Source of the DNA: Campylobacter curvus
Lineage (GTDB): Bacteria > Campylobacterota > Campylobacteria > Campylobacterales > Campylobacteraceae
NCBI RefSeq assembly: GCF_013372125.1
Contig: NZ_CP053826.1
Span: forward strand, 1,116,001-1,180,000
Length of the DNA stretch: 64,000 nucleotides
Direction of reading: 5' to 3'
Shown here: piece after piece, positions 5,695 to 62,550 of the stretch
Layout of the letters: each line of letters begins with the position of its first letter
How positions within the stretch are numbered: position 1 is the first letter of the stretch
Position numbers and translations under genes: made by a program
The notes under the pieces: generated by a model
What the model was told of the DNA's origin: nothing
Seen by the model: the letters and a program-made list of their open reading frames with translations, nothing else
Database searches by the model: none

Positions 5695-6055
5695 TGTTAT
5701 AGTAAAGTATTGATACTTGCTTCGCTTCTGCTTTGCAGTTGCGAGTGTAATGAAGCAAAAACCCTGTTCACTCCAGGAGCGACCTAGCACAGACGCGAAC
5801 AGCGTTTGTGCGGGAGCGAGTAGCCGAACATATAGCACGATTTTTTGCTTCATTACACTCGCAACTGCGAGCAGACCGCGATCAGCTACCGCTTCCCTGT
5901 CCTCGTAGCGAAGTTTTGCTTCGACTTCGTCTCGCAACTGCAAGCAGAACGTTACGAGTGCGTAGCACGAAGTAAAAATCGGCGGCGATAAGCTCGCTAA
6001 CAAGGTTTGGCTTCGCTTTTGTGAAAGTTAAAACAATACTTTGTTAGAACAGAGC
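5695..6055 (+). mobile_element. Palindromic terminal-repeat element, copy 1 (long type, left tip lost)
   Basis: About 360 bp, non-coding, filling most of the 457-bp gap between rsmD and flgI. It aligns with copy 3 from TGTTATAGTAAAG (5695) to TTGTTAGAACAGAGC (6041-6055). The outermost GGCTC on the left is not present. Shared internal blocks are ATATAGCACGATTTT (about 5830-5845) and AAAATCGGCGGCGATAAGC (about 5976-5994), then CAAGGTTTGG and CTTCGCTTT. It holds an extra 26-bp perfect inverted repeat not seen in the other copies. Open frames here only read through the repeat. Confidence 0.85.
5735..5868. repeat. 26-bp perfect inverted repeat inside copy 1
   Basis: 5735-5760 is the exact reverse complement of 5843-5868; the arms enclose 82 nt. 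Within the loop a second hairpin, GCACAGACGC/GCGTTTGTGC (one G-T mismatch), sits around 5787-5811. As RNA this would form a very long two-tier hairpin. Confidence 0.9.
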
Positions 6056-6086
6056 TAATTTTAAAATTTTAAACACTCAAGCGTAA

Positions 6087-6683
6087 CTAAAATTTATCAG
6101 CGAGCTTATCGTTATAAATAAAATAAGAAAGCGTAGTGGCACCGAATTTTTTTGATTTTAAAAGGGTGAAATTTGCGATCTTATCGCTAAATTTAAAGCT
6201 ACTGGCATGCTCGAACACTATCATGAAAATTTTATCTTTCTTAAGGTCCGCTATAAGCTTACTAAGTGCGTCATAGACGCCGTTAAAACCATCTCTCGTA
6301 TCAAATGGCGGATCCAGGTAGAGCAAGACCAGTTTTGTTTGAGAATTTACGATGTCAGCCAAAATTTCAAAGCTATCGCCATTTATCGCTCGTAAATTTA
6401 GCTCATCTACGCTCGCCATATTTTTTGCCGTGAGCTTAAAGGCAACCCTATCTTTTTCGATGGCTATCGCGCTATCTGCGCCGTTACTTAACGCTTCACA
6501 CGCCATCACCGCACTCCCGCCAAAGCCTTCGATGAAAATTTTACCCGCGAGCTCATCTCTAAGCGTATCAAAAAACGAGCCCTTCACGATATTTTTCGTG
6601 CTTCTAGTGGTGCTAAGGCTTGGAAGCTCCAGCTTTTTACCTTTAAATTTCCCGCTTGAAATAGCGGTGAAAATTTTACTCAA
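6087..6683 (-). CDS. rsmD: RsmD-type 16S rRNA guanine-N2 methyltransferase
   Basis: 198 aa. The family methylates G966 of 16S rRNA using S-adenosylmethionine. N-terminal GKFKGKKLELPSLSTTRSTK is the substrate-side segment. The Rossmann SAM motif is FIEGFGGSAVMACEAL, with acidic IAIEKD closing the second strand. The catalytic motif IV is LDPPF. Size is typical. Starts 4 bp inside the upstream 114-aa gene (6680-7024), so the two are co-translated. Confidence 0.9.
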   Translation of the reverse strand: MSKIFTAISSGKFKGKKLELPSLSTTRSTKNIVKGSFFDTLRDELAGKIFIEGFGGSAVMACEALSNGADSAIAIEKDRVAFKLTAKNMASVDELNLRAINGDSFEILADIVNSQTKLVLLYLDPPFDTRDGFNGVYDALSKLIADLKKDKIFMIVFEHASSFKFSDKIANFTLLKSKKFGATTLSYFIYNDKLADKF

Positions 6684-7024
6684 GCTCGTGACCTTAAGAG
6701 CTCGATGAGCTCTTTTTTAAAGCTATCCACAAGCTCGCCGATACGCCCTTCCAGGCTCACTTCGCTTTTAGCGTCGTCAAAATTTGGCTGCTTTATCTGA
6801 ATAGCCGAGTAAAATTCCTCAAGCGTGTTTAAAAGCGTTTGCCTACTAAACGGCACGCTAAGATATGGCGAATCATCACTGATGAGAAACAGCGGCTTTT
6901 GCGTATTGATATGCCTATCGGAAACGACAAAGTCGCAGTCCTTGTGATGAGCGGCTTCGTTTTTGCAAAACAAAAGCAATGTTTTTTGCAGCAAAATACA
7001 CTCGCATTCAAATGAAATTTTCAT
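6680..7024 (-). CDS. Uncharacterised small protein, operon with rsmD
   Basis: 114 aa, no family recognised. Early residues are Cys/His-containing (CECILL, CKNEAAHHKDC), which might bind a metal. The C-terminal half is a charged amphipathic helix (EGRIGELVDSFKKELIELL). No signal peptide or membrane segment. It overlaps rsmD by 4 bp (ATGA type), so it is a genuine coupled gene. The divergent flaG promoter region lies upstream. Confidence 0.6.
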   Translation of the reverse strand: MKISFECECILLQKTLLLFCKNEAAHHKDCDFVVSDRHINTQKPLFLISDDSPYLSVPFSRQTLLNTLEEFYSAIQIKQPNFDDAKSEVSLEGRIGELVDSFKKELIELLRSRA

Positions 7025-7086
7025 ATCTTTCCTTCAAAATTTGGTATCATTCTAACTAAAATTTATAGAAATTTGCATTAAATAGC

Positions 7087-7114
7087 TAAAGGAATTTTAA
7101 AAAAATCCGATGTA
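7087..7114 (+). promoter_or_regulatory. Sigma-28-type promoter of the flaG operon
   Basis: TAAAGGAA (7087-7094) and CCGATGTA (7107-7114) are 12 nt apart, resembling the FliA consensus TAAAGTTT-N11-GCCGATAA. It lies about 32 bp before the flaG start, which is consistent with late-class expression of flaG-fliD-fliS. Confidence 0.6.
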
Positions 7115-7145
7115 GAGGCAAATAGAAGTTTTAAGGAGTAAAACT

Positions 7146-7553
7146 ATGGAAATTTTCAAGGCGGCTGCGAATCAAGCGATGAGCGCGAACATAAATCCGT
7201 CGCAGCAAAATCAAATCGAAACTAGACAAATCGAGCACACGGATATCGAAGAAAACGTCACTGCCAATAAAAAATCAAAACTTGAAGATGCACTTGACAA
7301 GGAGCTTGACGGACTTAGTAACGAAGAGCTCGCCAAAAGGACTAAAGAAGTGACCGATAAGCTGAATTTCCAAATGGAGCAGCTCGATACAAACGTGAGA
7401 TTTGCCTACAACGATACGCTAAATTTGATGGTCGTTCAGGTAAAAGACGCAAAAACAGGCGACTTGGTGACACAGCTACCAAGCAAACAAGCGATAAAAA
7501 TAAGCGAATATTTCAAAGAGAGTATCGGCATACTCTTTGACAAGGAGAGTTAA
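7146..7553 (+). CDS. flaG: FlaG family flagellar protein
   Basis: 135 aa. FlaG proteins affect filament length; the molecular role is not settled. The N-terminal 45 residues are low complexity (Asn/Gln/Glu-rich). The conserved domain is residues 70-130: LNFQMEQLDTNVRFAYND, LNLMVVQVKDAKTGDLVTQ, LPSKQAIKISEYFKES and GILFDKE. The upstream site TAAGGAG is well placed. It is the first gene of flaG-fliD-fliS, and fliD follows after 1 bp. Confidence 0.93.
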   Translation: MEIFKAAANQAMSANINPSQQNQIETRQIEHTDIEENVTANKKSKLEDALDKELDGLSNEELAKRTKEVTDKLNFQMEQLDTNVRFAYNDTLNLMVVQVKDAKTGDLVTQLPSKQAIKISEYFKESIGILFDKES

Positions 7554-7554
7554 G

Positions 7555-9330
7555 ATGGCAGTCGGAAGTATAACGAATTTAGGATTTGGTACAAACAACA
7601 GCGCACTAAATGACGAGCTCGTAAATAAGCTAAAAAAGGCCGATGAAGAGGCTCAAATAAAACCTATAACAAGCCGCATAGAGAAAAACGAGATAAGACA
7701 AAAAGACCTAGCTGCGTTAAAAACTCTCGTCAGCAATGTCAATGTCAGCGCAAAGTCGCTAGCAAGCGAGACTTTGTATCTAAAAAGGCAAGTAAGCTCC
7801 ACCGGAACGGCCGCTAGCATAACGGCTGCAAGCGGCGTCAGCATACAAAGCTTTGATCTTGATGTCAAGCAAGTAGCTCAAAGAGATACATACCAAAGCT
7901 CGAAATTTTATAGCTCTACAAGCTTGCTCGGCCTCACACAAAACGGCTCTTTCGATGTTGAAATAAACGGAAATAAATACTCTATCGGCGTCACCAAATC
8001 AACGACATATCAAGATATCGTGGATAAGATAAACGAGGTCAGCGGCGGGAATTTACAAGCTCGTATCCTAAACGTAGGCGGAAGCAACCCTTATCAAATA
8101 ATGCTTCAATCAGCTGACACGGGAGCTACTCAAACAATAAAATTTTCAAACGATACAGCTGGGGTTTTAGAAAAGCTGGGCTGGGACAGCAACCAAATAC
8201 CAGTCACCGACGAGAGCGGCAACCCAGTATATAACAGCGACGGCACACAAAAATTTACGTCGAATTTAGAAAAAAACAAGCTTATGTCGGCACAAGATGC
8301 GATCTTTAACTACAACGGCGTAAATGTAACGCGCACCAAAAATACGATCGACGATCTGCGCCCAGGCGTCACTATCACCCTAAAAGAGGCCGGAAAGTCA
8401 TCTTTTAGCATCGGTCAAGACACTACCGACGTTGCAAAGGCTGTGGAAGAATTTATCAAAGACTACAACCTGATGGTAACAAATTTAGGTATAGCGACAA
8501 ACTACGATGAGGAAAAGGGCTCGGGCTCTTTTCAGGGAAGAAGCGAGATAACGAGTATCCGCTCAACCGTCAGTCGCCTAGTCACCGGACAAAACGACGA
8601 AGGCAAAGCTTTAAGTAGATTCGGCATAATTACCGACAAAGACGGTAAATTGATGCTTGATGATAAGAATACACTAAGCAAAGCTCTAAGCTCAAATCTC
8701 GAAGAGGTGCAAAAGTTTTTCATGGGCTCAAGCAAGATCGAGACAATAAGCTATATAGGCGTAAATAAAGTTGCCAGCGGACAACTGGATATCAAAACGG
8801 GCGATCTATCTATAAATGGCAAAGCCGTGAAATTTCAAACTGCAGCAGGATCGACCGCCGCACAAAACGCTCTCGCGCTTCAACAAGCCATAAATAGCGC
8901 CGGCATAGAGGGCGTAAGCGCTAGCCTCGATAGTAGCGGCGAGAGGATAGTACTAAAGCGAAGTGACGGTCAAAATATCGAGATCAAAGGCGATGCCTCG
9001 GCTCTAAATCAGCTTGGTATGAGCACGGCTACCGTAAATGCGGTGACAACTAAAACGGCTGGACTTTTTACAAATTTAAACTCGAAACTAGAAGAAATCG
9101 TCGGCATAGATAACAGAAAAGACGGCACATTGACCGTTCTTGCCAAACAGCTCAAAGAAGAAGGCGAGTCTTTGACTACAGACAAAGAAAATACTCAAAA
9201 GCTGCTAGATGAAAAATATAACACGATGAAAGATAGATTTATCAAATATAACTCCATCATCGCAAATTTAGAAAATCAATTTTCTACGCTAAAGCAGATG
9301 ATCGAGCAAGAAATGAATAGCAAAAAATAA
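7555..9330 (+). CDS. fliD: Flagellar filament cap protein FliD (HAP2)
   Basis: 591 aa from ATG 7555 (MAVGSITNLGFG), chosen because AAGGAG sits 8 nt upstream; an in-frame ATG 18 bp earlier lies inside flaG. FliD caps the growing filament and folds incoming flagellin. Conserved blocks: N-terminal GFGTNNSALNDELVNKLKKA, KDLAALKTLVSNVN and VKQVAQRDTYQS; C-terminal LKEEGESLTTDKE and YNSIIANLENQFSTLKQMIE, the D0/D1 helices. Length is in the Campylobacter range (about 600-640 aa). Confidence 0.96.
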   Translation: MAVGSITNLGFGTNNSALNDELVNKLKKADEEAQIKPITSRIEKNEIRQKDLAALKTLVSNVNVSAKSLASETLYLKRQVSSTGTAASITAASGVSIQSFDLDVKQVAQRDTYQSSKFYSSTSLLGLTQNGSFDVEINGNKYSIGVTKSTTYQDIVDKINEVSGGNLQARILNVGGSNPYQIMLQSADTGATQTIKFSNDTAGVLEKLGWDSNQIPVTDESGNPVYNSDGTQKFTSNLEKNKLMSAQDAIFNYNGVNVTRTKNTIDDLRPGVTITLKEAGKSSFSIGQDTTDVAKAVEEFIKDYNLMVTNLGIATNYDEEKGSGSFQGRSEITSIRSTVSRLVTGQNDEGKALSRFGIITDKDGKLMLDDKNTLSKALSSNLEEVQKFFMGSSKIETISYIGVNKVASGQLDIKTGDLSINGKAVKFQTAAGSTAAQNALALQQAINSAGIEGVSASLDSSGERIVLKRSDGQNIEIKGDASALNQLGMSTATVNAVTTKTAGLFTNLNSKLEEIVGIDNRKDGTLTVLAKQLKEEGESLTTDKENTQKLLDEKYNTMKDRFIKYNSIIANLENQFSTLKQMIEQEMNSKK

Positions 9331-9341
9331 GAAAGAGACAG

Positions 9342-9713
9342 ATGAAATCAGCAGCATATAATGCATACGCTCAGTCAAGCTTCGGGGGCATAGAGTCCCC
9401 GACCAAGCTCATCGAAATGCTTTACGACGGAATTTTAAAATTTATATTTCGCACGAAAAAAGCCATGGAAGTCGGAGATATAGAAAAAAAAGTTTATTAT
9501 ATAAACCGCGCCAATGCGATATTCGTAGAGCTTTTAAATTCGCTTGATTACAGCCAAGGGGATGTAGCTCACTACCTAAGCGGACTCTACGCCAGGCAGA
9601 TGCAGCTTCTAGCCATGGCAAACATAAACAACGATATGAACGCACTAAATGAAGTGACAAACGTAGTAAAACAACTCTCCGAGGCCTGGAGAGAGGTGAC
9701 CGCAGATGAATGA
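9342..9713 (+). CDS. fliS: Flagellin export chaperone FliS
   Basis: 123 aa, all helical. Binds the C-terminus of flagellin in the cytosol and delivers it to the export gate. Family features: early NAYAQSS, then KLIEMLYDGILKF, INRANAIFVELLNSLDY and the C-terminal VVKQLSEAWREV. It overlaps the next small gene by 8 bp. Confidence 0.95.
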   Translation: MKSAAYNAYAQSSFGGIESPTKLIEMLYDGILKFIFRTKKAMEVGDIEKKVYYINRANAIFVELLNSLDYSQGDVAHYLSGLYARQMQLLAMANINNDMNALNEVTNVVKQLSEAWREVTADE

Positions 9714-9933
9714 GTGGATCAAAGATCTAAAACTAGCCTTGCTAAACGAAGACTTTGACGCTATCATAACCCTTTCGGATAAATTTAACGAGAGCGATTT
9801 TAAAAATTTAGAGGATATGCAAGAGGCGCAAGCCCTGTTAGCTCAAGCCAAATCTTTTTTTGAAAACAAATCCTCTCACATCCAAGCAGAGCTTTCAAAG
9901 CTACAAAAAGCTCAAAAATACATAAAAAATTAA
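9706..9933 (+). CDS. Small helical protein after fliS (FliT-like position)
   Basis: 75 aa, no recognisable domain. Charged, helical, ending in a coiled-coil-like KSSHIQAELSKLQKAQKYI. Translationally coupled to fliS (start inside the last codons). The position and size suggest a FliT-type or FliS accessory chaperone, but that is inference from context only. I recall a comparable small gene in the same place in C. jejuni. Its stop codon abuts the 3' end of rnpB on the other strand. Confidence 0.6.
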   Translation: MNEWIKDLKLALLNEDFDAIITLSDKFNESDFKNLEDMQEAQALLAQAKSFFENKSSHIQAELSKLQKAQKYIKN

Positions 9934-10244
9934 GGCACGGCGATAAGCCGAGTTCTGTCGTGAGTGATCATTTATCTACTCTAAATTTTACAATTTAGCT
10001 CTAGCGAAGGGTTTAAATATAAGACTAAAACCGTCCCTTCTTGCTGCAAGTTGGGTTTATAAAGCCGCGCGAGTTGCCAAGCGCGCTGGTGGGCTCTTAC
10101 CCCGCCGTTTCACCTTTGCCACGTTTAGTGGCTGTTTGCTTTCTGTTACACTTTCCCTTAGGTTGCCCTAGCCATCCGTTAGATGGAACTTCGTCTTATC
10201 GCAGCTCGGACTTTCCTCTTTTTCAAGCGATCACTTGCCGTGCC
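9934..10244 (-). ncRNA. rnpB: RNase P RNA (M1 RNA)
   Basis: About 311 nt, minus strand. Catalytic RNA that matures tRNA 5' ends. The 5' end carries GGCACGGC (complement of 10237-10244), which pairs with GCCGTGCC at the 3' end (complement of 9934-9941) as helix P1. Diagnostic conserved segments are GAGGAAAGTCCGAGCT just after the 5' end and CAGAACTCGGCTTATCG near the 3' end. GGTAAGAGCCCACC and AGGGAAAGTGTAACAG also match the bacterial type A core. No tRNA or protein frame explains this region. Confidence 0.95.
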
Positions 10245-10250
10245 GAGGCA

Positions 10251-10256
10251 ATTATA
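10251..10256 (-). promoter_or_regulatory. -10 box of rnpB
   Basis: TATAAT on the minus strand, 6 bp before the inferred rnpB 5' end (10244). It lies in the 35-bp gap after the truD stop, so rnpB has its own promoter rather than depending on truD read-through. Confidence 0.7.
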
Positions 10257-10279
10257 GCGAAAATTTGGGAGGGTTTTCT

Positions 10280-11404
10280 CTAATCGAAAATATTTTTATG
10301 CAAAATTTCTTCCAGCACCACCGTCGCATACGACCCCTTTTGTAACGTAAAGCTCATCGTAAAGTGCGCCTTTTCCGGGATATATTTATATTCCACATTT
10401 TCAAGATAGCTCCACGCAAAGCGCCGCGAGCCACTCATTTTGGCGTTAAATTCGCGCGCCTCGCCAAACACTTCATCCTCGATCATACGCGCGGTGCGGG
10501 TCGCCTCATAGGCCTTCGCACCGACGATGAGCCCGCAGCTTGTGATGTCGCGGCGAGCAAATCTTTCTAGCTCCGCGTCCAAATCCTCGCACAAAAAGCA
10601 CTTGCCATGCGGGTAATGTCCCAAAACTTCGCCCGCGATCAGCTTGAAAAACCGCCTTTGCGCCTTTAAGCTTTTTAACTCCTCGCGCGGGATAAATTTG
10701 TAAATTTCGCCAAGCTCAGCGAGACTAAAATCCTGCGCAAAGCGTGAAATTTCAACACGTTTGCTAAGCCAGCGGTTAAAAAGCTCGCTTTGATACGCCG
10801 AGATCAAAAACTCGCTCATTTTTGGATTTTTCAGCCGCTTGCCATTTAGCGTGCCCGATTTTAGCAGCTCCTGCCCGCTCGCGGCGTTATCGCCAAATTT
10901 ACCAAAGCGCTGATAGCCAAAATAGTTCGCAAAGCCCGACGCATCCAGCGTTTTGATCGCATTTTCCAGTTTTACCGCCTCGCTTGGCATGACCTTTTTT
11001 AAGCGGATGAAAAAGTTGTTTGCGTGCAGATGTCCGACGCGAAGCTTATTTTCATGCGCGACAGTGCTTAGAATTTTCATCTTTTCGTGGCTAAAATTTG
11101 CCAAATTCGCCTCAAATTTACGCGGCATCGAGACAAACTGCGTCGTCATGCCCTGCTTGTCTTTTAGCCCCGCGTAGCCAAATTCACGTAGCTTCACGCC
11201 GGTAGCGTCGCTTAGCGCGCGCAGTGCCTCCTGTGTCGTCATGTCCTTTTTGGCGATTTCGATCATGAGGTGCTCGCCCTGCCCGCTAAAACTGTAAAGT
11301 GGCAGCTCGCGCACGACGAAGTCATCGGCGTTTTTGCTAAAATGCGCGTTTATTGGCGCGTGCGTGAGCGTGTAAAGCGGCTTAAAAATGGTGTCCTCTT
11401 GCAT
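10280..11404 (-). CDS. truD: tRNA pseudouridine-13 synthase TruD
   Basis: 374 aa. Converts U13 of certain tRNAs to pseudouridine. Diagnostic segments: [32 protein letters not shown] with the catalytic Asp in [13 protein letters not shown], and NYFGYQRFG. The TruD-specific insertion domain follows, and [15 protein letters not shown] lies near the end. Size is normal. The first 23 bp overlap the end of thiL. Both are on the minus strand and probably form one transcript. Confidence 0.95.
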
Positions 11405-12203
11405 GATTTTTGTATCTTCCTTTTGTGATTTTTCCTATCAAATTTAGCCTGACGCGGGCTTTTTTGGCTTCGTTTTTGACACGGGCGGCGTGACGCGGGC
11501 TAAAAGTAAATAAAATTTCATACTCTTCGCCGCTTTTTAGCTGCATTTGGCTTAATTTTCGGCTAAATTTCACCCCGCACCCGCTCGCCGCACAAAGCTT
11601 GGCTAGATCCATTCCCAGCCCGTCAGAGACATCCATCGCGGCGTTTATAAATTTTGCCGCCGCGTAAAAAAACCTCTCTCTTAGCACGGGTTTTACAAAG
11701 CGCGAATTTGCCCCGACCTGCCCGCCGTTTTGCAGCGTACGAAGCCCTTTTAGACTGCCTCCGAGCCTGCCCGTGTGAGCTACTATGTCGCCCTTTTTCG
11801 CGCCGCTTCGACGCATAACTTTGCCCGCAAGCTTGCCCACGATAGTGACGCTTAAATTTAGCGCGTCAGAGCTGATCGTATCGCCGCCGATGATCTGCAC
11901 GTCAAACTCGTCGCAAGCCTTTTTTATACCGCGCGTGAGCTCAGTTATCTGCGCGCGCGTGAAATTTCGCGGCAAAGATAGCCCAAGCAGCGCAAATTTT
12001 GGTCTCGCGTTCATCACGATGCAGTCGGAGAAATTTACGATCATCGCCTTATAGCCGATCTGCTCTAAATTTAACCAGCCAAGCTTAAAGTGTGAATTTT
12101 GCGCGAACAAATCCTTGCTAAACACCTGTGTGCCGACGACCGCTGCGTCATCGCCGATAAATTTACTCTCAAAACATCCGATCGTGAAATTTTCTTTATC
12201 CAT
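11382..12203 (-). CDS. thiL: Thiamine-monophosphate kinase
   Basis: 273 aa. Last step of thiamine diphosphate synthesis, phosphorylating thiamine phosphate. ThiL/PurM fold features: [53 protein letters not shown] and [13 protein letters not shown]. It is shorter than the usual ThiL (about 300-330 aa), mainly at both ends, but the nucleotide- and metal-binding aspartates are all present. The ATG is preceded by a short divergent gap shared with the gene at 12276. Confidence 0.92.
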
Positions 12204-12275
12204 TTGACGATTATATTAAATTTGGTTTTAAATTTAAAGCAAAAACCGCTAAAATTAGCCGAAAAAGGAGCGCTC

Positions 12276-13544: not shown

Positions 13545-13562
13545 ATTTACTTTCATGCTCGC

Positions 13563-15371: not shown

Positions 15372-15413
15372 TTTTGTCCTTGAAATTCCACGTATTTTAA
15401 TTTGCCGTCTAGC

Positions 15414-22740: not shown

Positions 22741-22748
22741 ATTTATTT
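22741..22748. repeat. Left 8-bp target duplication of copy 2
   Basis: ATTTATTT, identical to 22936-22943 on the other side of the element. Confidence 0.85.
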
Positions 22749-22935
22749 GGCTCTATTATAATAAATCATTTATGCTTGCTTCGCAAACCTTGCTCACTCC
22801 GCAAAGCACCGAACATATAGCACGATTTTCGCGTTCAGCCTATGGCTTCTCTGAAAATCGGCGGTGATAGCGTCGCTTCACAAGGTTTGACTTCGCTTTG
22901 AAATCTGAAAATCAATGAAATATTTTAACAGAGCC
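22749..22935 (+). mobile_element. Palindromic terminal-repeat element, copy 2 (short type, complete)
   Basis: 187 bp. Ends GGCTCTATTATAATAAATC and its imperfect inverse TTTTAACAGAGCC. Flanked by the exact 8-bp duplication ATTTATTT. Internal stems: CAAACCTTG (22784-22792) with CAAGGTTTG (22881-22889), CGATTTTC with GAAAATCG, and CAGCC with GGCTT at the tip. No coding capacity. The left terminus contains TATAAT reading out toward the HAD phosphatase gene. The right terminus supplies the stop codon of the neighbouring gene. Confidence 0.92.
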
Positions 22936-23251
22936 ATTTATTTTTATGCTTTTCTTTTTTGTAGTTTTTAGAATTTTTAAGCTTGTCAAGGGCGTTTGCA
23001 CTGCGCAAAAGCTCCTCTCGCGGCGTATTTGCGATCAGTAAATTTATAAAATTTTCAAGCGCTTTGGTATATGGCTGATCAAGATACACGGGCTCTATCT
23101 TTGCGATGATCAGGGCGTTTTTAGCCACCCTATCCGCAAACGCCGCCTCGTCAAAATCATCGCGCTTTAGGCCGTTTATGGCTGATTTTGCAAATTTTTC
23201 AAGCGCCCTTAAATATCTCACGCGCTTAAATTTATCGTCCGCTACGCTCAT
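22925..23251 (-). CDS. Uncharacterised helical protein with element-derived stop
   Basis: 108 aa, no family recognised, helical and Lys-rich at the end (KLKNSKNYKKEKHKNK). The final residues W-L-C and the TAA stop are read from the terminus of element copy 2 (tggctctgttaa). Removing the element and one duplication changes the end to ...NKFKDEH and a stop overlapping the TTG of the HAD gene. The truncation therefore costs only a few residues, and function may be intact. It diverges from metY. Confidence 0.65.
   Translation of the reverse strand: MSVADDKFKRVRYLRALEKFAKSAINGLKRDDFDEAAFADRVAKNALIIAKIEPVYLDQPYTKALENFINLLIANTPREELLRSANALDKLKNSKNYKKEKHKNKWLC
22936..22943. repeat. Right 8-bp target duplication of copy 2
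   Basis: ATTTATTT, inside the 3' end of the 22925-23251 reading frame. Confidence 0.85.
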
Positions 23252-26118: not shown

Positions 26119-26126
26119 TAAAATTT
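26119..26126. repeat. Left 8-bp target duplication of copy 3
   Basis: TAAAATTT, identical to 26417-26424. Confidence 0.85.
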
Positions 26127-26416
26127 GGCTCTGTTATAGTAAAGGACTTAAACTTTTGAGAGCATCTTATAAGTATTGATATCTGCTTCGCTTCTGCTAT
26201 GCAGTTGCAAACGAAGTGAAGCAAAAACCCTGCTCACTCCGCAAAGCGCCAAACATATAGCACGATTTACGCGGTCAGCTACTGCTTCACTGTCCTCGTA
26301 GCTAAGTCTCGTTACGAGTGCGTAGCGCGAAGTAAAAATCGGCGGCGATAAGCTCGCTAGCAAGGTTTGACTTCGCTTTTATGAAAGTTAAAACAATACT
26401 TTGTTAGAACAGAGTC
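26127..26416 (+). mobile_element. Palindromic terminal-repeat element, copy 3 (long type, complete)
   Basis: 290 bp. Begins GGCTCTGTTATAGTAAAG and ends CTTTGTTAGAACAGAGTC, one mismatch in the outer nine bases. Exact duplication TAAAATTT on both sides. It shares with copy 1 the block GTTACGAGTGCGTAGC and the AAAATCGGCGGCGATAAGC core. It lies between the stop of the GGDEF-like gene (which abuts the right duplication) and the antiporter. Outward TATAAC in the left terminus could act as a -10 for the antiporter. Confidence 0.92.
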
Positions 26417-26424
26417 TAAAATTT
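26417..26424. repeat. Right 8-bp target duplication of copy 3
   Basis: TAAAATTT, immediately next to the stop codon (26425-26427, minus strand) of the GGDEF-like gene. Confidence 0.85.
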
Positions 26425-52630: not shown

Positions 52631-52817
52631 GGCTCTATTACAATATTTCATTGATTTTTAGATTTCAAAGCGAAGTCAAACCTTGTGAAGCGACGCTATC
52701 ACCGCCGATTTTCAGAGAAGCCAAAGGTTGAACGCGAAAATCGTGCTATATGTTCGGTGCTTTGCGGAGCAAGCATGGTTTGCGAAGAGAGTATCAATGA
52801 TTTGTTATAACAGAGCC
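52631..52817 (-). mobile_element. Palindromic terminal-repeat element, copy 4 (short type, complete, inverted)
   Basis: 187 bp, same length as copy 2 and nearly identical to its reverse complement. Ends GGCTCTATTACAATATTTC and TGTTATAACAGAGCC. Flanking TTTTTAT at 52624-52630 and 52818-52824 gives a 7-bp match as target duplication. Stem CGATTTTC/GAAAATCG is kept; one mismatch breaks the CAAACC-TG/CA-GGTTTG stem. It lies after the ftsZ hairpin. Confidence 0.9.
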
Positions 52818-53149
52818 TTTTTATAGGGTCGCAAGCGTAGCGAGGCAAAGCAAAGACGTCCTCTGATTTCAGAAAAACTATAAAGCTGACCGCAGTCTGC
52901 TACTAGCAGGAAAACGAGAACAGCGTTTAAGCAGCGAACAAAGCTTTCCAAAAAGCTATCAAGATAAAATTTCACTTCCTGGTTGCTATTCGCATCTTTT
53001 ACGATCGAAAGCAGGTGCACATCACTCCTACAAACGATATTATATATAGCTGCTCTCGCAACGAATGATACAAGCATTCATCAAGAAACATCGGCGCTTA
53101 TCATTAGAGAAACGACGCTATTAAAATTTCAGCGATAAAGCCTCGATAT
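52818..53149. other. 332-bp gap without a recognisable gene
   Basis: Lies between copy 4 and the DUF59 gene. A 90-codon frame on the minus strand spans 52805-53077 but begins without a ribosome site, shows no family and ends in the element terminus. The segment includes GAGAACAGCGTTT (52916-52928), close to a 13-mer in copy 1. Probably decayed sequence. Confidence 0.5.
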
Positions 53150-54611: not shown

Positions 54612-54619
54612 ATTTTATC

Positions 54620-54958: not shown

Positions 54959-55042
54959 ACTCTCTCCTTTAAAATTTAATTAGGAGGATTATACTCTTAG
55001 ATATATATGCTATCCTTGATTTGACTCAACAAAGCCTAAATT

Positions 55043-56089
55043 TTACTTCACATACGGGATATATTCGCCGTATCCCAGCTTTTGCATATCCTCAAGCGGG
55101 ATAAATTTAAGACTCGCACCGTTTATGCAGTATCTAAGCCCGCCACGTTCGCCCGGACCGTCGTCAAATACATGCCCCAAATGCGAATCACTTATCTTTG
55201 AAGTGACCTCGACTCTTGACATGCCGTGACTGTTATCCTGCTCGTATTTTAGCGCATCGGCGGTTATTGGCTTTGTGAAGCTCGGCCAGCCGCATCCCGC
55301 ATCATATTTATCAGAGCTCGAAAATAGCGGCTTTCCGCTCACGACATCGACATAGATGCCGCGCTCTTCAAATTTATCATACTTGCTGCTAAACGGGCGC
55401 TCGGTAGCCTTTTCCTGAGTCACGGCATACTGCTCGTCCGTTAGCTTCTCTTTTAGTTCGCTTTTGCTTGGCATTTTAAATTTCTCATCGTCATAAAGCG
55501 GCTTTTTGGCTAAATTTAGATCGATATGGCAGTATCCAAATGGATTTTTATCAAGGTAGTCTTGATGATACTCCTCGGCCAAGACGAAATTTTTAAGCGG
55601 AGCGACCTCGACTGCGATCTTGTCTTTAAATTTACTCTGCTCAAACCTCATAAACGCCTCTATCACAGGTAGATCCTGCGCATCGACATAGTATATCCCG
55701 GTCCTATACTGGCGCCCGATGTCATTGCCTTGCTTATTGACCGAAGTCGGGTCTATAACGCGAAAATAATGCGCCAAAATTTCAGCCAGATCTATGCGAT
55801 TAGCGTCATATTTTATATGTAGCGTCTCGGCGTGATCCGTCGCGTCTATCTCGTGATAGCTAGTCTTATCGCTCTTTCCGTTTGCGTATCCTACGCTCGT
55901 TTGCTCGATGCCGGCGATCTTTTTAAAATAGCCTTCCATACCCCAAAAGCAACCGCCCGCCAAATAAATATCTTTTAAATTTTTTTGTGCCATCAAAGGT
56001 CCTTTTATCTCGTTTTGTGCGTTCGCAAATCCGACTGCCAGCATTATAGTCGCAGCAAATCCTAAAAATATTTTAAGCATTTTTGTCAT
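55043..56089 (-). CDS. msrAB: Exported MsrA-MsrB methionine sulfoxide reductase fusion
   Basis: 348 aa. Signal peptide about 1-24 ([21 protein letters not shown]). MsrA domain with nucleophile in [12 protein letters not shown], then TSVGYANG and [10 protein letters not shown]. MsrB domain at about 215-345: [38 protein letters not shown], and the catalytic Cys in [10 protein letters not shown]. The two CxxC zinc pairs of many MsrB proteins are missing, so this is the zinc-free form. Repairs both S- and R-methionine sulfoxides in periplasmic proteins. Confidence 0.95.
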
Positions 56090-56115
56090 TTTAGCTCCTT
56101 TTTAAATTTTCAAGA

Positions 56116-56121
56116 ATTATA
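56116..56121 (-). promoter_or_regulatory. -10 box of msrAB
   Basis: TATAAT on the minus strand, 27 bp before the start codon; AAGGAG follows as ribosome site. Confidence 0.6.
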
Positions 56122-56249
56122 ATAAATTTAAAGTTAGCCAGTGTGAAGTGAGTCAAGGCGAAATTCACTCCCGATTTCATACCTTTGCATCTAAAAATTT
56201 ATAAAATGCGCTTCGATATCTCTTGCTTCCGCTAGGTATTCAAACTATA

Positions 56250-56447
56250 GATTAAAAAATTATTGTTGCCCTTAAACGAACGCTTCGCAAATCTTACTCG
56301 CTCCGCAAGGCGCCAAACGTATAGCACGATTTTAGCAGTCAGCCTTATGGCTTCCTTTAAAATCGGCGGCGATAGCGTCGCTTCATAAGATTTGACTACG
56401 CTATAACGTTTAAAATTTTAGAAATCAACACTTTTTAAAACAGAGCC
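56250..56447 (+). mobile_element. Palindromic terminal-repeat element, copy 5 (short type, left end worn)
   Basis: About 198 bp inside the 530-bp gap between purH and msrAB. Right end TAAAACAGAGCC is good; the left terminus has decayed and its boundary is estimated by alignment with copy 2. The stems are kept by compensating changes: CAAATCTTA/TAAGATTTG and CGATTTTA/TAAAATCG, where copy 2 has CAAACCTTG/CAAGGTTTG and CGATTTTC/GAAAATCG. The rest of the gap holds the msrAB promoter and the purH terminator. Confidence 0.82.
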
Positions 56448-56585
56448 TAAAATTTTTACGCTACCCCTCTCTGTCAAAACGTCGTCATCTCTACTAATTT
56501 TTAATCTTGCAAAGTCCAAATTTATCGTCAATAAATACCGTCCAGGGCAACTCTTACAGGAGAATTTATACTACGAAAGTAAAAT

Positions 56586-56611
56586 TTGGCAAAGCAAAGG
56601 CGCTTTGCCAA
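56586..56611 (-). terminator. purH terminator
   Basis: TTGGCAAAG (56586-56594) and CTTTGCCAA (56603-56611), 9-bp perfect stem with 8-nt loop, 8 bp after the purH stop and followed by ATTTTAC on the minus strand. Confidence 0.7.
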
Positions 56612-56619
56612 GTGAAATT

Positions 56620-58152
56620 TCAGTGCAAAAAGTGGCGGACACCGGTGAAATAAAGCGACATGCCGTGTTCGTTCGCCGCCTCTATGACCTCATCGTCGCG
56701 GATGCTACCACCCGGCTCTATTACGCATTTCACGCCCACTTTGCTCGCTATATCGACACTGTCTCTAAACGGGAAGAACGCCTCGCTAGCAAGCACGCAG
56801 CCATGTAGATCGAGATCGAGCTCTTTTGCCTTCGCTACGGCCGCACGCGCCGCATCGACGCGAGATGTCATACCCATGCCGATAGCCACCATCGCGCCGT
56901 CTTTTACATAAACAACGCAGTTGCTCTTCGTAAGGGCGGCGACCTTCCAAGCGATCTGTGCGTCTTTTAGCTGATTTTCATTCGCATGCTTTTTACTCAT
57001 TTGCTTCATATTTTTAAGCTCGTCATCATTCACCACGTCTCGCTCTTGGAAAACGAACCCGCCGTCAATGTGTTTGAAGTCAAACCTATCCCCTGCGCGC
57101 ACCAAAAATTTATTATCTTGGGTGAAAATTTTGATGCGTTTTTTATTTTCAAATACCGCCAAAGCATCGTCGTCTACGTTTGCAGCGATTATGACCTCGA
57201 CGTAAATTTCATTTATCTTACGTGCTAATGCCCTATCTAGCGTGCCGTTTATAGCGACCACTCCGCCGTAGGCCGAGATAGGATCGCATTTTAGCGCCTC
57301 CACGTAGCTCTCAAGCAGGCTGTCTTTTACGGCTAGACCGCAAGGGTTGGAGTGTTTTACGATCGCCACGACCGGGGCGTTTTCAAAGCTGGTAGCCAGC
57401 ATGACAGCGCCGTTTATATCGGTCATGTTGTTAAAGCTGGCTTCGCCTTTGAGCGCTCTAAAGTTGTTCGTGAAAAAATATTCGAATTCATAAAGCGCGC
57501 CTTTTTGGTGCGGGTTTTCGCCATATCTCGTGTCAAAGACTTTATTTCCAAAGATAAATCTAGCATCGCCAAACCCGCCTTTAAATCGCTCGTTCATATA
57601 GTTTGCGATCGTCGCATCGTAGCTTGCCGTGTGCTCGTAGGCCTTTATCATCAAATTTCTGCGAAATTCAAGATCGTCAGTCCCCTCTTTTAAGCGCTGC
57701 AAAATTTCATCATAATCAAGCACGCTGGTAACTATCAAAACGTCTTTGAAATTTTTAGCTGCAGAGCGCACCATCGCAGGACCGCCGATGTCGATGTTCT
57801 CGATGATCTCATCAAATTCATCCGTACGGATCGTGGTCTCTTTGAAAGGATATAAATTTACGCAGACAAGGTCTATACCCTCTATGCCAAACTCTTTTGC
57901 CTGTGCGACGTGGCTCGCGTCGTCTCGTTTATATAAAATTCCTCCGTGGATCTTTGGATGCAGGGTCTTTACCCTGCCCTCAAACATCTCCGGGCTTTGC
58001 GTGATCTGGGCTACTTCGACCGCTTTCACGCCGTTTTCGTTTAAAATTTTATACGTCCCGCCGGTCGAGACGATCTGCCAGCCTAGCTGCTCCAGCCCCT
58101 TGGCAAACTCTACCACACCCTCTTTGTCGCTCACGCTGATCAACGCTCTCAT
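56620..58152 (-). CDS. purH: Bifunctional AICAR transformylase / IMP cyclohydrolase
   Basis: 510 aa. Last two steps of IMP synthesis. N-terminal MGS-like cyclohydrolase domain ([48 protein letters not shown]). C-terminal AICARFT domain: [28 protein letters not shown] with catalytic Lys-His, [20 protein letters not shown], and ending [20 protein letters not shown]. Full length. In C. jejuni also near purL. Confidence 0.97.
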
Positions 58153-58232
58153 TTTAGCTCCTTTAAATTTTACTTAGCCCATATCAAAATATAGTATCGT
58201 TTCATGAAATTTAACTTCTAAAGTTTAAACTC

Positions 58233-59018
58233 CTATGCGTTTTCACGCTCCTTTATACTTTCGTAAGCCTCGTTTATCTCTTGCAGTTTTTTAGTCGATT
58301 TTTCTATGACCTCTTCGCTCTCGCCGCGTCCCATGAGGATATCCGGATGATACTGACGCACCAGCTCGCGGTATCTTTTCTTGACCTCGCTGAATTTAGC
58401 CGTTTTAGGTAAGCCCAAAACTTCGCAAGGATCTTTTTTGGCTTCAAAGCCAGAGCTTGCTCCGCTTTGCCCCTGATAACTTTGTCGTCCGTAGCCGCCT
58501 GAGAACCTCTGCCTGGCACCGTAAAAAATCTCAAACTGCATTATTATTTGATTTAGCATCTGCCTACTAAGCCCAAGCCCGTCCGAGATGTCCTCGATGA
58601 CCTTACGCTCAGCGGCGCTGAAACTACCGTCTATATAAGCTAAATTTAGAAAAAACGTGATACGAGCGGCTGAAATTTGAGCGTCTAGATTTAGCGCTAT
58701 TCGGTAATTTCTCGCAAGCTCGTAGGCATTTGAGATATTTTCTTTTTCTATATTGTAAATTCTCTTTAGCTCGTCGCGCTGATCCCTTGAGCCTTGGATC
58801 TTGAGCGTAAGATCATCGAGCGTCTCGCTAATCAGCCTTGCTTCAAGCTCATTCACGCGCCCGTCGCCCTTTGCGACCTTGGCTAGAAGCGCGACTAAAA
58901 ATTTAGCCTCCTCAAAGCCCAGCGTCCTTTGCCTGCCAAAATTTACGCCGCCTTTAAACGAGTTAAAGAACAAATAAATCGCTAAAAAAATGATGATATA
59001 AAATAAAAATGAACCCAT
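58233..59018 (-). CDS. DjlA-like membrane-anchored DnaJ protein
   Basis: 261 aa from ATG 59018 (an in-frame GTG 9 bp earlier overlaps the protease stop). N-terminal membrane helix (FLFYIIIFLAIYLFF), TerB-like helical domain at about 35-150 (FLVALLAKVAKGDGRVNELEA, AERKVIEDISDGLGLS), and C-terminal J domain at about 195-261 with HPD in VRQYHPDILMG. Stimulates DnaK at the membrane; envelope-stress link in E. coli DjlA. Follows the Clp-fold protease gene after 2 bp. Confidence 0.88.
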   Translation of the reverse strand: MGSFLFYIIIFLAIYLFFNSFKGGVNFGRQRTLGFEEAKFLVALLAKVAKGDGRVNELEARLISETLDDLTLKIQGSRDQRDELKRIYNIEKENISNAYELARNYRIALNLDAQISAARITFFLNLAYIDGSFSAAERKVIEDISDGLGLSRQMLNQIIMQFEIFYGARQRFSGGYGRQSYQGQSGASSGFEAKKDPCEVLGLPKTAKFSEVKKRYRELVRQYHPDILMGRGESEEVIEKSTKKLQEINEAYESIKERENA

Positions 59019-59020
59019 TT

Positions 59021-60085
59021 TTACCACAAATGATATATCGTATTTTTGATCCTGCCACCGACGAGCTCATTTTTGCGCCATGAGCTCTCGTCGTTCATCA
59101 CGTTCCAGCGGCGCTCGTCAGGGCGGTAAAACCAGTCTTTATCGATCTGATAATAAATCTGCTTGCCGTCAGTTTCGATGATGTTTGCGATGTTGTTATC
59201 ATGATAGCTGTTCTCGTCGTAGTCCGTGAATGCACGCTGCCCCATCTCGGAGTAAAGGAGCGTGAGCTCTTGAAGCATCTCATTTAGATCGTCATCCATC
59301 TTTTTGACATGAAGCCCGATCTCCTCGGCCTCGCGAAAGAGTATCGGATACTCGTGCGCAGGATAGTCACCGTTTAATCTCTCTGAAATTTCTTGGATCT
59401 TCTCATCGTCGCTTATGTGATAGCGCAAAAGCTCGCGGCAAATTTTAAGCGAAAGCGAGCTGGCGCGATCGACCGCACCAAATACGAGCGGATGGATGTA
59501 TTCGTAAAGCGAGTTATAAGGGTTCGTGTCGCGCGGCCTGTCCTTGTCTTGCTCCTTCCAGAGCTTCACGACGCGACTTAGCTCGTCCATCGAGACGCTC
59601 ACCAGCTCATTGCCTTTGTTCGTCGGGCTTAGCTCATGTTTTAGCGATGTATCCACCGGCGTTAGATACGCGAGCGGCCCCATCACGATCTCGTTTGCCC
59701 CCAAAGCCATCATAGTCGCCGCAGAAGCGCAGTTCGCCGGCACTAAGGCGGTCAGATTTTTACAATAATTTCTCAAGGTTGAGATGATACGAAGACTGGC
59801 TATACCGCTACCGCCATCACTTTTGATAAATAAAAACGCGTTGTCTATCTTTTTACCCTTTAGAATTTCATACATCGCGCTTGCGTCGTTCCCGCAGACG
59901 CTGCCCGCGTTTGAGTTGTAGTAAGTGATGAACGTGCCGCCTAGCTTTTGTTGCACCTTTTTTATGAGCGCTTGCGTCTCGTCAAATAGTATAGGGGGCT
60001 TCGCGACGCCTTTTTGCTGGTTCGTGCGGTGTTCGCCATCTTTGCCTTCATCCGTTTTTTTACTCAATGCATCGAGCAGACTCAT
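59021..60085 (-). CDS. SDH/SppA-like Clp-fold serine protease
   Basis: 354 aa. Cytosolic, no signal peptide. ClpP/crotonase core at about 65-190: FITYYNSNAGSV, NAFLFIKSDGGSGIASLR, and nucleophile Ser in CASAATMMALGANEIVMGP, followed by LAYLTPVDTSL. This pattern matches the SDH_sah family (serine dehydrogenase proteinases). The C-terminal third (KIQEISERLNGDYPAHEYPI) is also typical. Paired with the DnaJ-type gene at 58233, which suggests protein quality control. Confidence 0.75.
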   Translation of the reverse strand: MSLLDALSKKTDEGKDGEHRTNQQKGVAKPPILFDETQALIKKVQQKLGGTFITYYNSNAGSVCGNDASAMYEILKGKKIDNAFLFIKSDGGSGIASLRIISTLRNYCKNLTALVPANCASAATMMALGANEIVMGPLAYLTPVDTSLKHELSPTNKGNELVSVSMDELSRVVKLWKEQDKDRPRDTNPYNSLYEYIHPLVFGAVDRASSLSLKICRELLRYHISDDEKIQEISERLNGDYPAHEYPILFREAEEIGLHVKKMDDDLNEMLQELTLLYSEMGQRAFTDYDENSYHDNNIANIIETDGKQIYYQIDKDWFYRPDERRWNVMNDESSWRKNELVGGRIKNTIYHLW

Positions 60086-60102
60086 AAAATCTCCTTTAAA
60101 TT

Positions 60103-62292
60103 TCAGTCTTCTTGTTTGATTATGTTTGCAAATTCGTTAAAATAAATCTCGCTGATCTGGCTTAAATTTTCATCGATCTCGTTTAGTCTAAAATTATCCC
60201 CGCCCGTTACGCCGATCTTTTCAAATTTCACGCCAAATTTCGTCGCCAGCTCGCTAAATTTAGCCTCGTCTTTTACACCCACGAGCGCACGTGAAAAGCT
60301 CTCGTCAAAGATGAAATTTGCCTGCGCTACGTCAAATTTACACTCCGCACCGATGCCGCTTATGCACGCCATTTTGGCTAGGCTCATCGCCACACCGCCC
60401 ACGCCGACCGAGTTTGCAAACTCCAAAACGCCCACCTTATTCGCCGCGATGATGAGCTCCCAAAGCGCGCGCTCCTTTTTGTAGTCTATCTCGCTAAGAG
60501 TGCCGCCGACCACGTCAAAAAGGGCTTTGGCGTAAAGTGAGGCGGCAAATTCTCCCTTCGTCTCGCCCAGCAGATATATCGCCGTGCCCGCTCTGCCAAA
60601 GACACTCTTTAAATTTGCGCGCGCATCGTCATTTACGCCCACACTCACGATCGCCGGAGTCGGATAGACGCTCACGCCGTCCGTATCGTTGTAAAGGCTC
60701 ACGTTACCACTCACGACAGGTGTGTTTAGCTCGCGGCAGGCTTCTTTTATGCCCTCGCAGCCCTGCGCGAACTGCCACATGACCTCTGGATTTTGCGGGT
60801 TGCCGTAGTTTAGGCAGTCTGTGATCGCTAGCGGCATCGCCCCGCTCATCGCGACCTTGCGTCCGGCAGCCGCGACCGCACGAGCCGCGCCGATCTTTGG
60901 ACTCACGAAATTTGCGCGCGGATCGCACTGAGCCGCCATGGCTAGGGCTTTACCAGTCTCTTTGATACGGATGACCGCTGCGCCCAAATATCCCGGCTGT
61001 TTGATCGTATTTGTCTGGATATTTGCGTCGTATTGATCGTAAATGAGGGCTTTATTTAAAATTTCAGGCTCGCGTAGGAGCTTAAAAAACGCCGTTTTGT
61101 TGTCGATGTCTTTTGGAATTTGTAGATTTTTGATTTCATCAAGATATTTTGGTCGCGCGGTAGGTCGGTCGAGCACGGGAGCAGCCTCAGAGAGCGGCTT
61201 TATAGGGATCTGTCCCACCAGCTCGCCATGCCAATAAAGCTGCATCTGCCCGCTGTCAGTCACCTCACCGATGACCTCGGCGTCAAGGTCCCATTTTTTA
61301 AAGATTTCAAGCACCTTTTGCTCGCAGCCCTTTTTAGCGCAGATGAGCATGCGCTCCTGACTCTCGCTTAGCATGAGCTCATACGGGCTCATACCCTCCT
61401 CGCGCATCGGGACGCGGTCAAGCTGCATCTTCATGCCGCTACCGCTGCGCCCCGCCATCTCAAAGCTCGAGCTCGTTAGCCCCGCCGCGCCCATGTCCTG
61501 AATGCCGACGATGTAGTCTTTTTTAAATAGCTCCAAGCACGCCTCCATCAGCAACTTTTCGGCAAAAGGATCGCCCACTTGCACGGTCGGGCGCAAGGAT
61601 TTGTTCGCGTCGTTAAAGCTATCGCTCGCCATCACAGCCCCGCCAAGCCCGTCGCGACCGGTCTTTGAGCCCACGTATATCACGGGATTGCCAATGCCTT
61701 CGGCCTTGCCGTAGAAAATTTCATCGCTTTTTACAAGACCTAGCGCAAAGGCATTTACCAAGATGTTGCCGTTAAAGCTCGCGTCAAAGGTCGTCTCGCC
61801 GCCCACGGTCGGGATACCCATGCAGTTGCCGTAGTGCCCGATGCCAGCAACCGCGCCTTTTAGCAAATATCGCTGTTTGCGCGCATTCTCGCTATCTCCG
61901 CGCACCTCGCCAAAGCGCAGCGAGTTCATATTCGCCACCACGCGCGCCCCCATCGTGAAAACGTCGCGCAGTATACCGCCCACGCCTGTGGCGGCACCTT
62001 GAAAGGGCTCGATGAAGCTTGGGTGATTGTGACTCTCCATCTTAAACACCGCCGCGACTCCGCCGCCAACATCGATGACGCCGGCGTTCTCGCCCGGTCC
62101 TTGGATCACCCACGGCGCTTTGGTCGGGAAGCCGTTTAGGTATTTTTTGCTCGATTTGTAGCTGCAATGCTCGCTCCACATCGCCGAAAATATGCCAAGT
62201 TCAAGTAAATTTGGCTCGCGCCCTAAAATCTTTAAAATTTCTTCATACTCTTGCTCGCTGATCTTGTGCGCTTTTATCGTCGCTTTGTCCAT
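60103..62292 (-). CDS. purL: Phosphoribosylformylglycinamidine synthase, small type
   Basis: 729 aa. ATP-dependent amidation of FGAR in purine synthesis. Small PurL that works with separate PurS and PurQ, not encoded in this window. Signatures: [45 protein letters not shown] with the catalytic His, [24 protein letters not shown] and [16 protein letters not shown]. Its ATG lies downstream of element copy 6. Confidence 0.97.
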
Positions 62293-62410
62293 CTTTCGCC
62301 TTTGTAAAATTTTGCTTTATTTTACTTTAATCAGCATAAAAAGTTGATAAACTGCGAGCTGAATTTGCGGCTTAAAAAATGGTATAGCAAGAGAATTTAA
62401 AACGTTTTAT

Positions 62411-62550
62411 GGCTCTATGCTTTTCGATACTCCAAAACAAAGGCTTCACAAAGTGCGTAGCGTGAAGCGTCTTGAAAAGGGGAAAACGCAAGCAATAAAA
62501 TCGGCGGCGATAAGCTCGCTAATAAGGCTCGTATGTTTCAAACGCCACGC
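62411..62550 (+). mobile_element. Palindromic terminal-repeat element, copy 6 (decayed, long type)
   Basis: Begins GGCTCTATGC at 62411. Keeps GTGCGTAGC (about 62453) and TAAAATCGGCGGCGATAAGC (about 62496-62515) as in copies 1 and 3, then AATAAGG. The central ATATAGCACGATTT block and the right terminus are not found, so the right boundary is uncertain. It carries the stop codon of the 48-aa frame at 62519. Confidence 0.7.

Follow-up and report, generated by a model that had tools for sequence, protein, structure and literature searches.

The window analysed here is the whole stretch of 64,000 nucleotides at positions 1,116,001 to 1,180,000 of contig NZ_CP053826.1 of Campylobacter curvus, which contains six copies of a dispersed, palindromic, non-coding element, identified below as a miniature inverted-repeat transposable element (MITE). 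The six copies lie where a preliminary, sequence-only reading of the window had placed them, with borders confirmed within 1-2 bases, apart from copy 6, which seems shorter than proposed. The strand given for each copy is that of the candidate RNA. Copy 2 (22749..22935, minus strand) is a module-less form of 187 bp, in which both terminal inverted repeats are intact (GGCTCTATTATAAT...ATTTTAACAGAGCC) and which is flanked by the 8-bp target duplication ATTTATTT, at 22741..22748 on the left and 22936..22943 on the right. Copy 4 (52631..52817, plus strand) is a second module-less form of 187 bp, found in inverted orientation and bordered by a 7-bp duplication, TTTTTAT. Copy 3 (26127..26416, minus strand) is a long modular form, containing the modules b and e; its ends are GGCTCTGTTATAGT...GTTAGAACAGAGTC, and the 8-bp duplication TAAAATTT is found at 26119..26126 and 26417..26424. 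The remaining three copies, all on the minus strand, have one end each eroded or missing. Copy 1 (5696..6056), a long modular form with modules b, g, d and e, has an eroded left end, beginning with GTTATAG, and the right end AGAGCT. Copy 5 (56252..56447), a module-less form with a right end of type B, has an eroded left end, so that its start is approximate. Copy 6 (62411..62530) is truncated: it keeps the left end GGCTCTATG and, at 62497-62512, the right core, while the right terminal repeat is lost and the end is approximate.

All six copies contain AAAATCGGCGGYGATA, as originally described. A second string, ATATAGCACGATTTT, had been reported as shared by all copies except copy 6; it is absent from copy 6 and exact in copies 1, 2 and 4, but copies 3 and 5 contain one mismatch each. 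Copies 2 and 4 match at 92.6% over 189 bp (E 1e-77), copies 1 and 3 at 93.4% over 121 bp (E 2e-46). According to the list of open reading frames (ORFs), the copies are intergenic, with the qualification that ORF ends overlap copies 2 and 4 and a frame starting at TTG runs over copy 1. ORF 22925-23251 (108 amino acids) reaches 11 bp into copy 2 and ORF 52805-53077 (90 amino acids) reaches 13 bp into copy 4, the stop codon being located inside the terminal repeat in both cases. The frame in copy 1, 113 amino acids long, spans most of the copy and is the only ORF of at least 80 amino acids in the window to lie mostly inside a copy; it was judged to be spurious, and no convincing coding capacity was found, in agreement with the sequence-only reading. 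To the right of copy 4, and inside ORF 52805-53077, the segment 52835-52960 resembles element fragments (AAGCTGACCGCAGT, GAGAACAGCGTTTAAGCAG) and is possibly a decayed second copy.

The family comprises about 85 copies, dispersed through the one-contig genome of 1,974,918 bases (about 1.97 Mb), many of them located just 3' of genes. The working list is composed of 86 elements, a few of which are possibly chance matches or fragments; two further elements, outside this list, were revealed by module matches. Searches of the genome with copy 2 and copy 3 returned 50 and 71 matching pieces, respectively (40 first-look candidates scored each), and covariance models R1 and R2 of the element interior gave 64 and 66 matches. 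The right-core pattern, with up to two mismatches, is found at 112 places, while the reversed control gives 24. Of the 112, 100 were listed, 51 with an exact match and 14 with a single mismatch; the listed set misses at least two true exact copies. The window is denser than average, since it holds six copies where about 2.8 per 64 kb are expected for 86 evenly spread elements. Copies sharing the same ends are thus found far beyond the window, and the possibility that they were confined to it, with no common ends elsewhere, can be set aside.

Terminal inverted repeats, GGCTCTRTTATAAT / ATTRTAACAGAGCC, are recognisable at 44 of 60 right-core sites, allowing up to three mismatches at the left end and two at the right; the 16 sites without such ends were left unscored. 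An exact 8-bp target duplication flanks 21 of the 44 delimited copies, compared to 0.37 expected by pairing the flanks of different copies. At 7, 9 and 10 bp the exact duplications are 1, 0 and 0, against 0.65, 0.21 and 0.07 expected. The duplicated targets are nearly pure A+T. By eye, at least three types of ends, designated A, B and C, are found on one kind of interior. Inverted repeats, duplications of fixed length, a short non-coding body (about 160-542 bp) and ends common to an autonomous element are the features of a bacterial MITE. The MITE-type character suggested by the sequence-only reading is strengthened by these data and by the copy number: the elements are almost certainly true MITEs of transposon origin, and their mobility is well shown.

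Of the 48 genus genomes searched, 23 contain the Pfam IS1595 transposase family. The single match in the C. curvus genome belongs to a 746-bp element (L084:1423-2168, corresponding to G000:C1:32710-33455), which interrupts a MITE copy near 32.7 kb and is flanked by its own duplication AAATCTTA; this copy is older than the 746-bp insertion, because the latter took place within it. The element was rejected as a parent, as its ends, GGCTCAAGATAAG, do not match those of the MITE. An element of equal length (746 bp) and with the same ends (GGCTCAAGATAAGTTAA) is found in congener G037 (L081:1259-2004), where 26 IS1595 matches were detected, several of them with stop codons.

Full-length elements with MITE-like ends, each bordered by an exact 8-bp duplication, were found in three other congeners: a 2999-bp element in G041 (L129:1771-4769, duplication TTTTACTT), a 3627-bp element in G014 (L130:1637-5263, AATATAAA) and a 5215-bp element in G004 (L132:27-5241, AAAAAAAT). 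The Campylobacter coli plasmid NZ_CP082875.1 carries an element annotated as ISCaje5, 2899 bp in length (L255:4920-7818, duplication ATTAATTT). Outside the genus, the same kind of ends, again with exact 8-bp duplications, delimit elements in Turicimonas muris, where a transposase element of 1160 bp occupies two sites, and in a metagenome-assembled genome of the Succinivibrionaceae, where the element is 5477 bp long; these come from 11 loci examined, the remaining ones having no such end pair or a different end. MITE end strings, picked by eye, were aligned to the ends of these elements, the maximum score being 24, with 300 shuffles per comparison. Scores against ISCaje5-type ends range from 14 to 21, and were mostly matched by none of the 300 shuffles (by one in two comparisons); scores against the 746-bp element of C. 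curvus range from 9 to 12, and were matched by 10 to 91 shuffles. Type A ends are nearest to the G041 and G014 elements, type B is tied between the G041 and the Succinivibrionaceae element, and type C is tied among several. The three congener transposases are 60-64% identical to the first, with an NCBIfam IS1595 match at 182-185 bits, and the G041 transposase is 77.9% identical to the C. coli plasmid copies annotated as ISCaje5. A profile built on the three finds no match in the C. curvus genome (E≤0.01) and matches in 13 of the 48 genus genomes, five of which are long and strong, the rest weaker or partial. The full-length insertion sequence proposed as a check on the family was found in congeners but not in the genome which hosts the copies. 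Matching ends and AT-rich 8-bp duplications indicate that the MITE was very probably mobilised by IS1595-family transposases of the ISCaje5 kind.

The genes carried by the ISCaje5-type transposons of G041, G014, G004 and the C. coli plasmid are restriction-modification genes, different in each of the four: an Eco57I-type methylase and a 207-amino-acid protein in G041, a fusion of N6-methylase and HsdR-N in G014, a methylase of this kind with a protein weakly similar to a specificity subunit in G004, and a site-specific DNA methyltransferase in the plasmid element. In Helicobacter pylori pY95 (L256) an AlwI-family restriction endonuclease adjoins a related transposase; no element ends were found there.

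Three features of the family go beyond the sequence-only reading, namely a covarying RNA-like scaffold, a bias in how the copies are oriented relative to genes, and modules which account for the variation in size. The module-less element is a single long imperfect palindrome. Copy 2 folds with a z score of -5.7 on the minus strand, opposite to the orientation originally adopted, and of -2.7 on the plus strand. With model R1 the scaffold is located at 22778..22894 in copy 2 (minus strand, 138.2 bits), at 52672-52788 in copy 4 (plus strand, 133.3 bits) and at 56282-56399 in copy 5 (minus strand, 132.6 bits), all matching by construction, copy 2 being a building sequence of R1. Copy 3, which is not a building sequence, matches at 26218..26374 (minus strand, 65.2 bits), with module b inserted in the apical helix; copy 6 gave no match with R1. 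Covariation was evaluated on an alignment of 30 cores, composed of 29 of the 34 short-core copies of the genome and one core from G014; five copies were left out, two as exact duplicates and three because they diverge strongly or contain long inserts. In the resulting structure of 34 pairs, 98.2% of the cells are paired, and changes on both sides occur at 15 pairs, for 66 such cells compared to 19.9±3.5 in shuffled alignments, a value reached by none of 500 shuffles. When the partners were slid by 1-3 columns, as a control, pairing was reduced to 28-41%. RNAalifold, starting from the alignment alone, predicted nearly the same structure, with compensated changes in 16 of 35 pairs. In the G014 copy a run of U-A pairs of the upper helix is turned into A-U. 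Addition of divergent copies from the same genome and from two other genomes, including G001, gave both-side changes in 22 of 33 pairs (118 cells, compared to 28.5±5.1), a count which rests on an alignment fitted to the structure.

Internal loops are more conserved than helices, 19 of 26 columns being invariant in the former and 27 of 58 in the latter, when the apical stem is excluded. They include a GA/GA tandem and a one-sided bulge of 9 nucleotides, six of whose columns are invariant. Such invariance is hard to obtain by self-correction of a palindrome, because this would remove mismatched loops. The aligned sequences show an element interior with a conserved, RNA-like scaffold, the internal loops of which are largely invariant. 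The match to a known RNA family that would have spoken against the sequence-only reading was not found: a scan of the whole window at Rfam gathering scores detected RNase P alone, outside the elements, and a lax scan of copy 2 gave one chance-level match (E 7.5). The RNase P RNA, of bacterial class A, is located at 9928-10246, minus strand (242 bits). No account of this family was found in the literature searched, which mostly excludes subscription journals.

Two size classes had been distinguished in the window. Across the genome this division does not stand: size is modular, and the delimited copies span about 160-542 bp according to the hairpin modules present. When the 22 delimited copies of 200-440 bp were aligned to a module-less copy, insertions recurred, with few exceptions, at the same points, which on the RNA strand are positions of about 41-47, 81, 105, 126-134 and 150. 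A BLAST comparison of nine module strings, with b and b2 taken together, to DNA of the same genome, mostly chosen for element matches, the window being the only unselected stretch, gave 169 matches near cores, 18 of them inverted. Considering only matches in the expected orientation and zone, at least one module is present in 45 of 86 cores, with 30 presence/absence patterns, including the empty one; this stricter count was preferred to an earlier one of 33 patterns, which included inverted and off-site matches. Eight matches lie over 420 bp from the listed cores: six within one unlisted element, one within another, and one being a 17-nucleotide partial match. The order of the modules is constant; several are self-complementary, some occur twice within one copy and, by eye, some are nested, with x and y located inside d and z terminal in g. 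The largest delimited copy, of 542 bp, folds at z -5.6. The simplest inference is that the patterns arose by mosaic exchange, through recombination between copies; deletion from a long ancestor could also have generated them.

The orientation of the elements was evaluated relative to ORFs called at cut-offs of 80, 100, 130 and 160 amino acids, at which 83, 82, 76 and 68 of the 86 elements, respectively, were scored. Between two co-directional neighbours, the RNA strand is prevalently sense, with sense:antisense counts of 35:14, 34:15, 33:14 and 32:10 at the four cut-offs (p = 0.0038, 0.0094, 0.0079 and 0.00094). The bias persists after thinning to one element per 3 kb (31:13, 31:14, 32:12 and 30:9; p 0.0096, 0.016, 0.0037 and 0.0011). 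Convergent sites exceed divergent ones by 24:10, 24:9, 21:8 and 18:8 (p 0.024, 0.014, 0.024 and 0.076). In the window, the RNA strand of five of the six copies is sense to the genes on both sides; the remaining copy lies between convergent genes. Copies with exact duplications, presumably the youngest, are sense rather than antisense by 11:2, the other scored copies by 15:7; since the bias is already present in the former, it fits either an insertion preference or quick selection. Of 38 cases scored, 20 have the stop codon of the upstream ORF inside the RNA 5' end or no more than 50 bp from it. In copy 2 (window 22925-22927) the neighbouring ORF takes its stop codon from the terminal repeat, and so does, in the G014 copy, the preceding ORF, which from its motifs is presumably miaA; the 90-amino-acid ORF beside copy 4 stops in the other terminal repeat (window 52805-52807), and a stop codon of this origin is recorded at L075:1614-1616.

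Extension of the search to other Campylobacter genomes, as the sequence-only reading had advised, revealed the scaffold (R1, E≤0.01) in three of the 48 genus genomes, with 64 matches in C. curvus and one each in G014 and G001. Model R2 finds it in 3 of 41 genomes, and a family-wide draw in 3 of 150 genomes from 12 genera (24 scored per genome), the filters used in such large searches losing weak matches. G001, of another species, contains a divergent copy at L252:961-1066, flanked by genes which, from their motifs, are presumably thiC and mrp, and a partial match at about 913-958 of L253, near a leuC-like gene; these copies look like old fixed insertions. A divergent scaffold subfamily also exists in C. 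curvus (GCGGCGACAUUGCC...; loci L240, L241, L242 and L248), in which the apical hairpin and the CUAYAYGUU bulge are kept and the lower helix is changed. The exact core pattern had no matches in collections of genome and viral contigs, nor did copy 2 among plasmid or phage records, all of which may omit this genome or its near relatives.

The most economical account of these data, to which a probability of roughly 0.6 is assigned on the basis of sequence comparisons, is that of a transposase-orphaned MITE which introduces a structured RNA into the 3' untranslated or intercistronic part of mRNA. An ISCaje5-type transposase, acting in trans, would have recognised the GGCTCTGTT...ATTGA ends, about 24 bp long, and placed the element in AT-rich DNA between genes, with a duplication of 8 bp; the source transposase would have been lost from this genome, or never have been present in it. 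The cargo is an RNA-like fold instead of a gene, the strand usually sense to the neighbours forming a long hairpin with recurrent module sites. Located behind stop codons or between co-directional genes, the element would enter the transcript at its 3' untranslated end or between cistrons, and the RNA so formed would be under selection. The hairpin would then determine how the host mRNA is processed, degraded or read through, in the manner of ERIC and Correia/NEMIS sequences; an element with its RNA strand transcribed behind a gene would be tolerated or prove useful, and selection would keep the fold. That the effect is on mRNA processing or stability is tentatively suggested, by analogy with ERIC. 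A further step, in which an RNA with invariant loops, putatively a site for a protein, an RNase or a ligand, would have spread to dozens of genes as a transposable post-transcriptional regulon, diversified by hairpin modules at recurrent joints, some nested, with the scaffold kept, is a speculative extension and rather unlikely.

Several observations weigh against this account. Folding of whole elements is strong on both strands (mean z -4.56 on the RNA strand and -4.21 on the other, the former being lower in 25 of 42 cases), so that a strand preference is not clear from energy. A first count of G-U pairs, 46 versus 6, was set aside as biased, because the structure used came from the RNA strand; with strand-neutral Watson-Crick pairs the asymmetry shrinks to 14:3 cells and 9:2 columns, and is suggestive only. 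The covarying cells are not independent events, because the copies are paralogues, and the neighbouring genes are ORF calls, not annotation. The convergent excess is absent from the copies with exact duplications (4:4) and is 14:1 in the other scored copies; the scarcity at divergent sites appears in the latter only. None of the seven parent-type loci searched contains the R2 scaffold, whose origin they do not explain, and a general cellular function is unlikely, because the family was found in only 3 of 48 genus genomes and 3 of 150 in the family-wide draw. Part of these data would suit a purely selfish palindromic MITE, in which the hairpin is kept at the DNA level, through transposition intermediates or cruciforms, and compensatory changes arise by template switching, with no selection on RNA. 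Both strands fold well, the module-less element is one long imperfect palindrome, movement of MITEs requires ends and not interiors, and no matching transposase was found in the genome. Template correction, however, should erase mismatched loops, and yet 19 of 26 internal-loop columns, the GA/GA tandem included, are invariant; nor are the sense bias and the residual G-U asymmetry predicted. Such an origin is therefore considered doubtful, and selection acting on RNA is probable, being supported but not proven by alignment and orientation.

The proximity of upstream stop codons and the excess of convergent over divergent sites would also be found if the elements were transcription terminators or insulators behind genes, their orientation reflecting selection against read-through in one direction. 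A terminator scan of copy 2, the only copy scanned, revealed just one short internal site on the RNA strand (1 versus 0.6 expected, near chance), and 32-35 copies lie in sense between co-directional genes, which makes this function unlikely. Capture by MITE ends of an old cellular regulatory RNA, subsequently spread, would render mobility secondary. The divergent G001 scaffold, which scores 35.6 bits with R1, of which it is not a building sequence, and 62.9 with R2, of which it is, and the absence of the scaffold from the parents searched could be so explained; the G001 copy, however, has at its side what by eye resembles an eroded terminal repeat, and searches under strict filters revealed no locus which is conserved in single copy across the genus, so that this history seems improbable. 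Derivation from other insertion sequences can be given hardly any weight. IS6, mentioned in the sequence-only reading, has a GGCTCTGTT-like start, similar ends (GGCTCTGTTGCAAA) and 8-bp duplications, but no IS6/IS240 transposase was matched at E≤0.001 in the 48 genus genomes, where IS1595-family elements share ends and 8-bp duplications with the MITE; ends and congener elements both favour IS1595/ISCaje5. ISL3 elements have GGCTCT ends and comparable AT-rich 8-bp duplications; no ISL3 transposase was found in the C. curvus genome, the only one searched, and IS1595 elements with closely similar 24-bp ends exist, leaving an ISL3 derivation just as remote.

Bacterial MITEs are often taken as debris. 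Here, selection at the RNA level on a mobile element becomes testable site by site, because covariation, invariant loops, orientation bias and recurrent modules are all available, and the modules may serve as a natural experiment in the growth of a structured RNA by hairpin insertion. The repeated association of ISCaje5-type elements with restriction-modification genes would tie the origin of the MITE to the mobility of defence genes in Campylobacterota.

Among known repeats, ERIC is similar to the present element in being intergenic, non-coding and formed by one long hairpin. It differs in that it duplicates TA, compared to 8 bp here, and is found in other bacteria; it is not known to have modules of the kind described above. 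Correia elements (NEMIS) also duplicate TA, and have different termini. In the cited accounts, ERIC is a single long stem-loop of about 127 bp (PMC2267715), co-transcribed with neighbouring genes, which at gene 3' ends can lower the upstream mRNA, orientation being crucial (PMC2229807, PMC10969869); its function has been shown experimentally, while the counterpart proposed here is deduced from orientation bias and sequence. Correia elements are described there as MITEs which are transcribed into hairpins and cleaved, as RNA, by RNase III (PMC2229807, PMC10969869). Pneumococcal BOX repeats are reported as modular, MITE-like sequences of 67-637 bp, whose module content differs between copies, largely by the number of boxB units (PMC3049150). 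Set beside boxB arrays by description, the modules of C. curvus are several distinct hairpins, each at its own site, in fixed order, some of them present twice per copy. Since the duplication is of 8 bp and the ends are of the IS1595 type, the element is, where tested, neither ERIC nor Correia/NEMIS, and presumably not BOX. Its nearest relatives are ISCaje5 and other IS1595 elements, with which it has in common ends of the GGCTCTGTT type, about 24 bp long, and 8-bp duplications rich in A+T. AT-rich 8-bp repeats are described for the IS1595-family ISApl4 (PMC12561309), and the available account of the family gives 8-bp duplications as usual, GG termini in the related Merlin elements and a transposase as the usual sole gene (PMC8101967). 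IS1595 elements encode a transposase, the relatives found here often with restriction-modification genes, whereas the MITE encodes nothing evident, its copies containing no IS1595-type DDE transposase, and carries an additional scaffold. The single IS1595 transposase of the C. curvus genome lies outside the sequence of the copies and has other ends; for this reason the element is classed as a MITE related to the ISCaje5-type IS1595 elements, non-autonomous and not a full member of that family.

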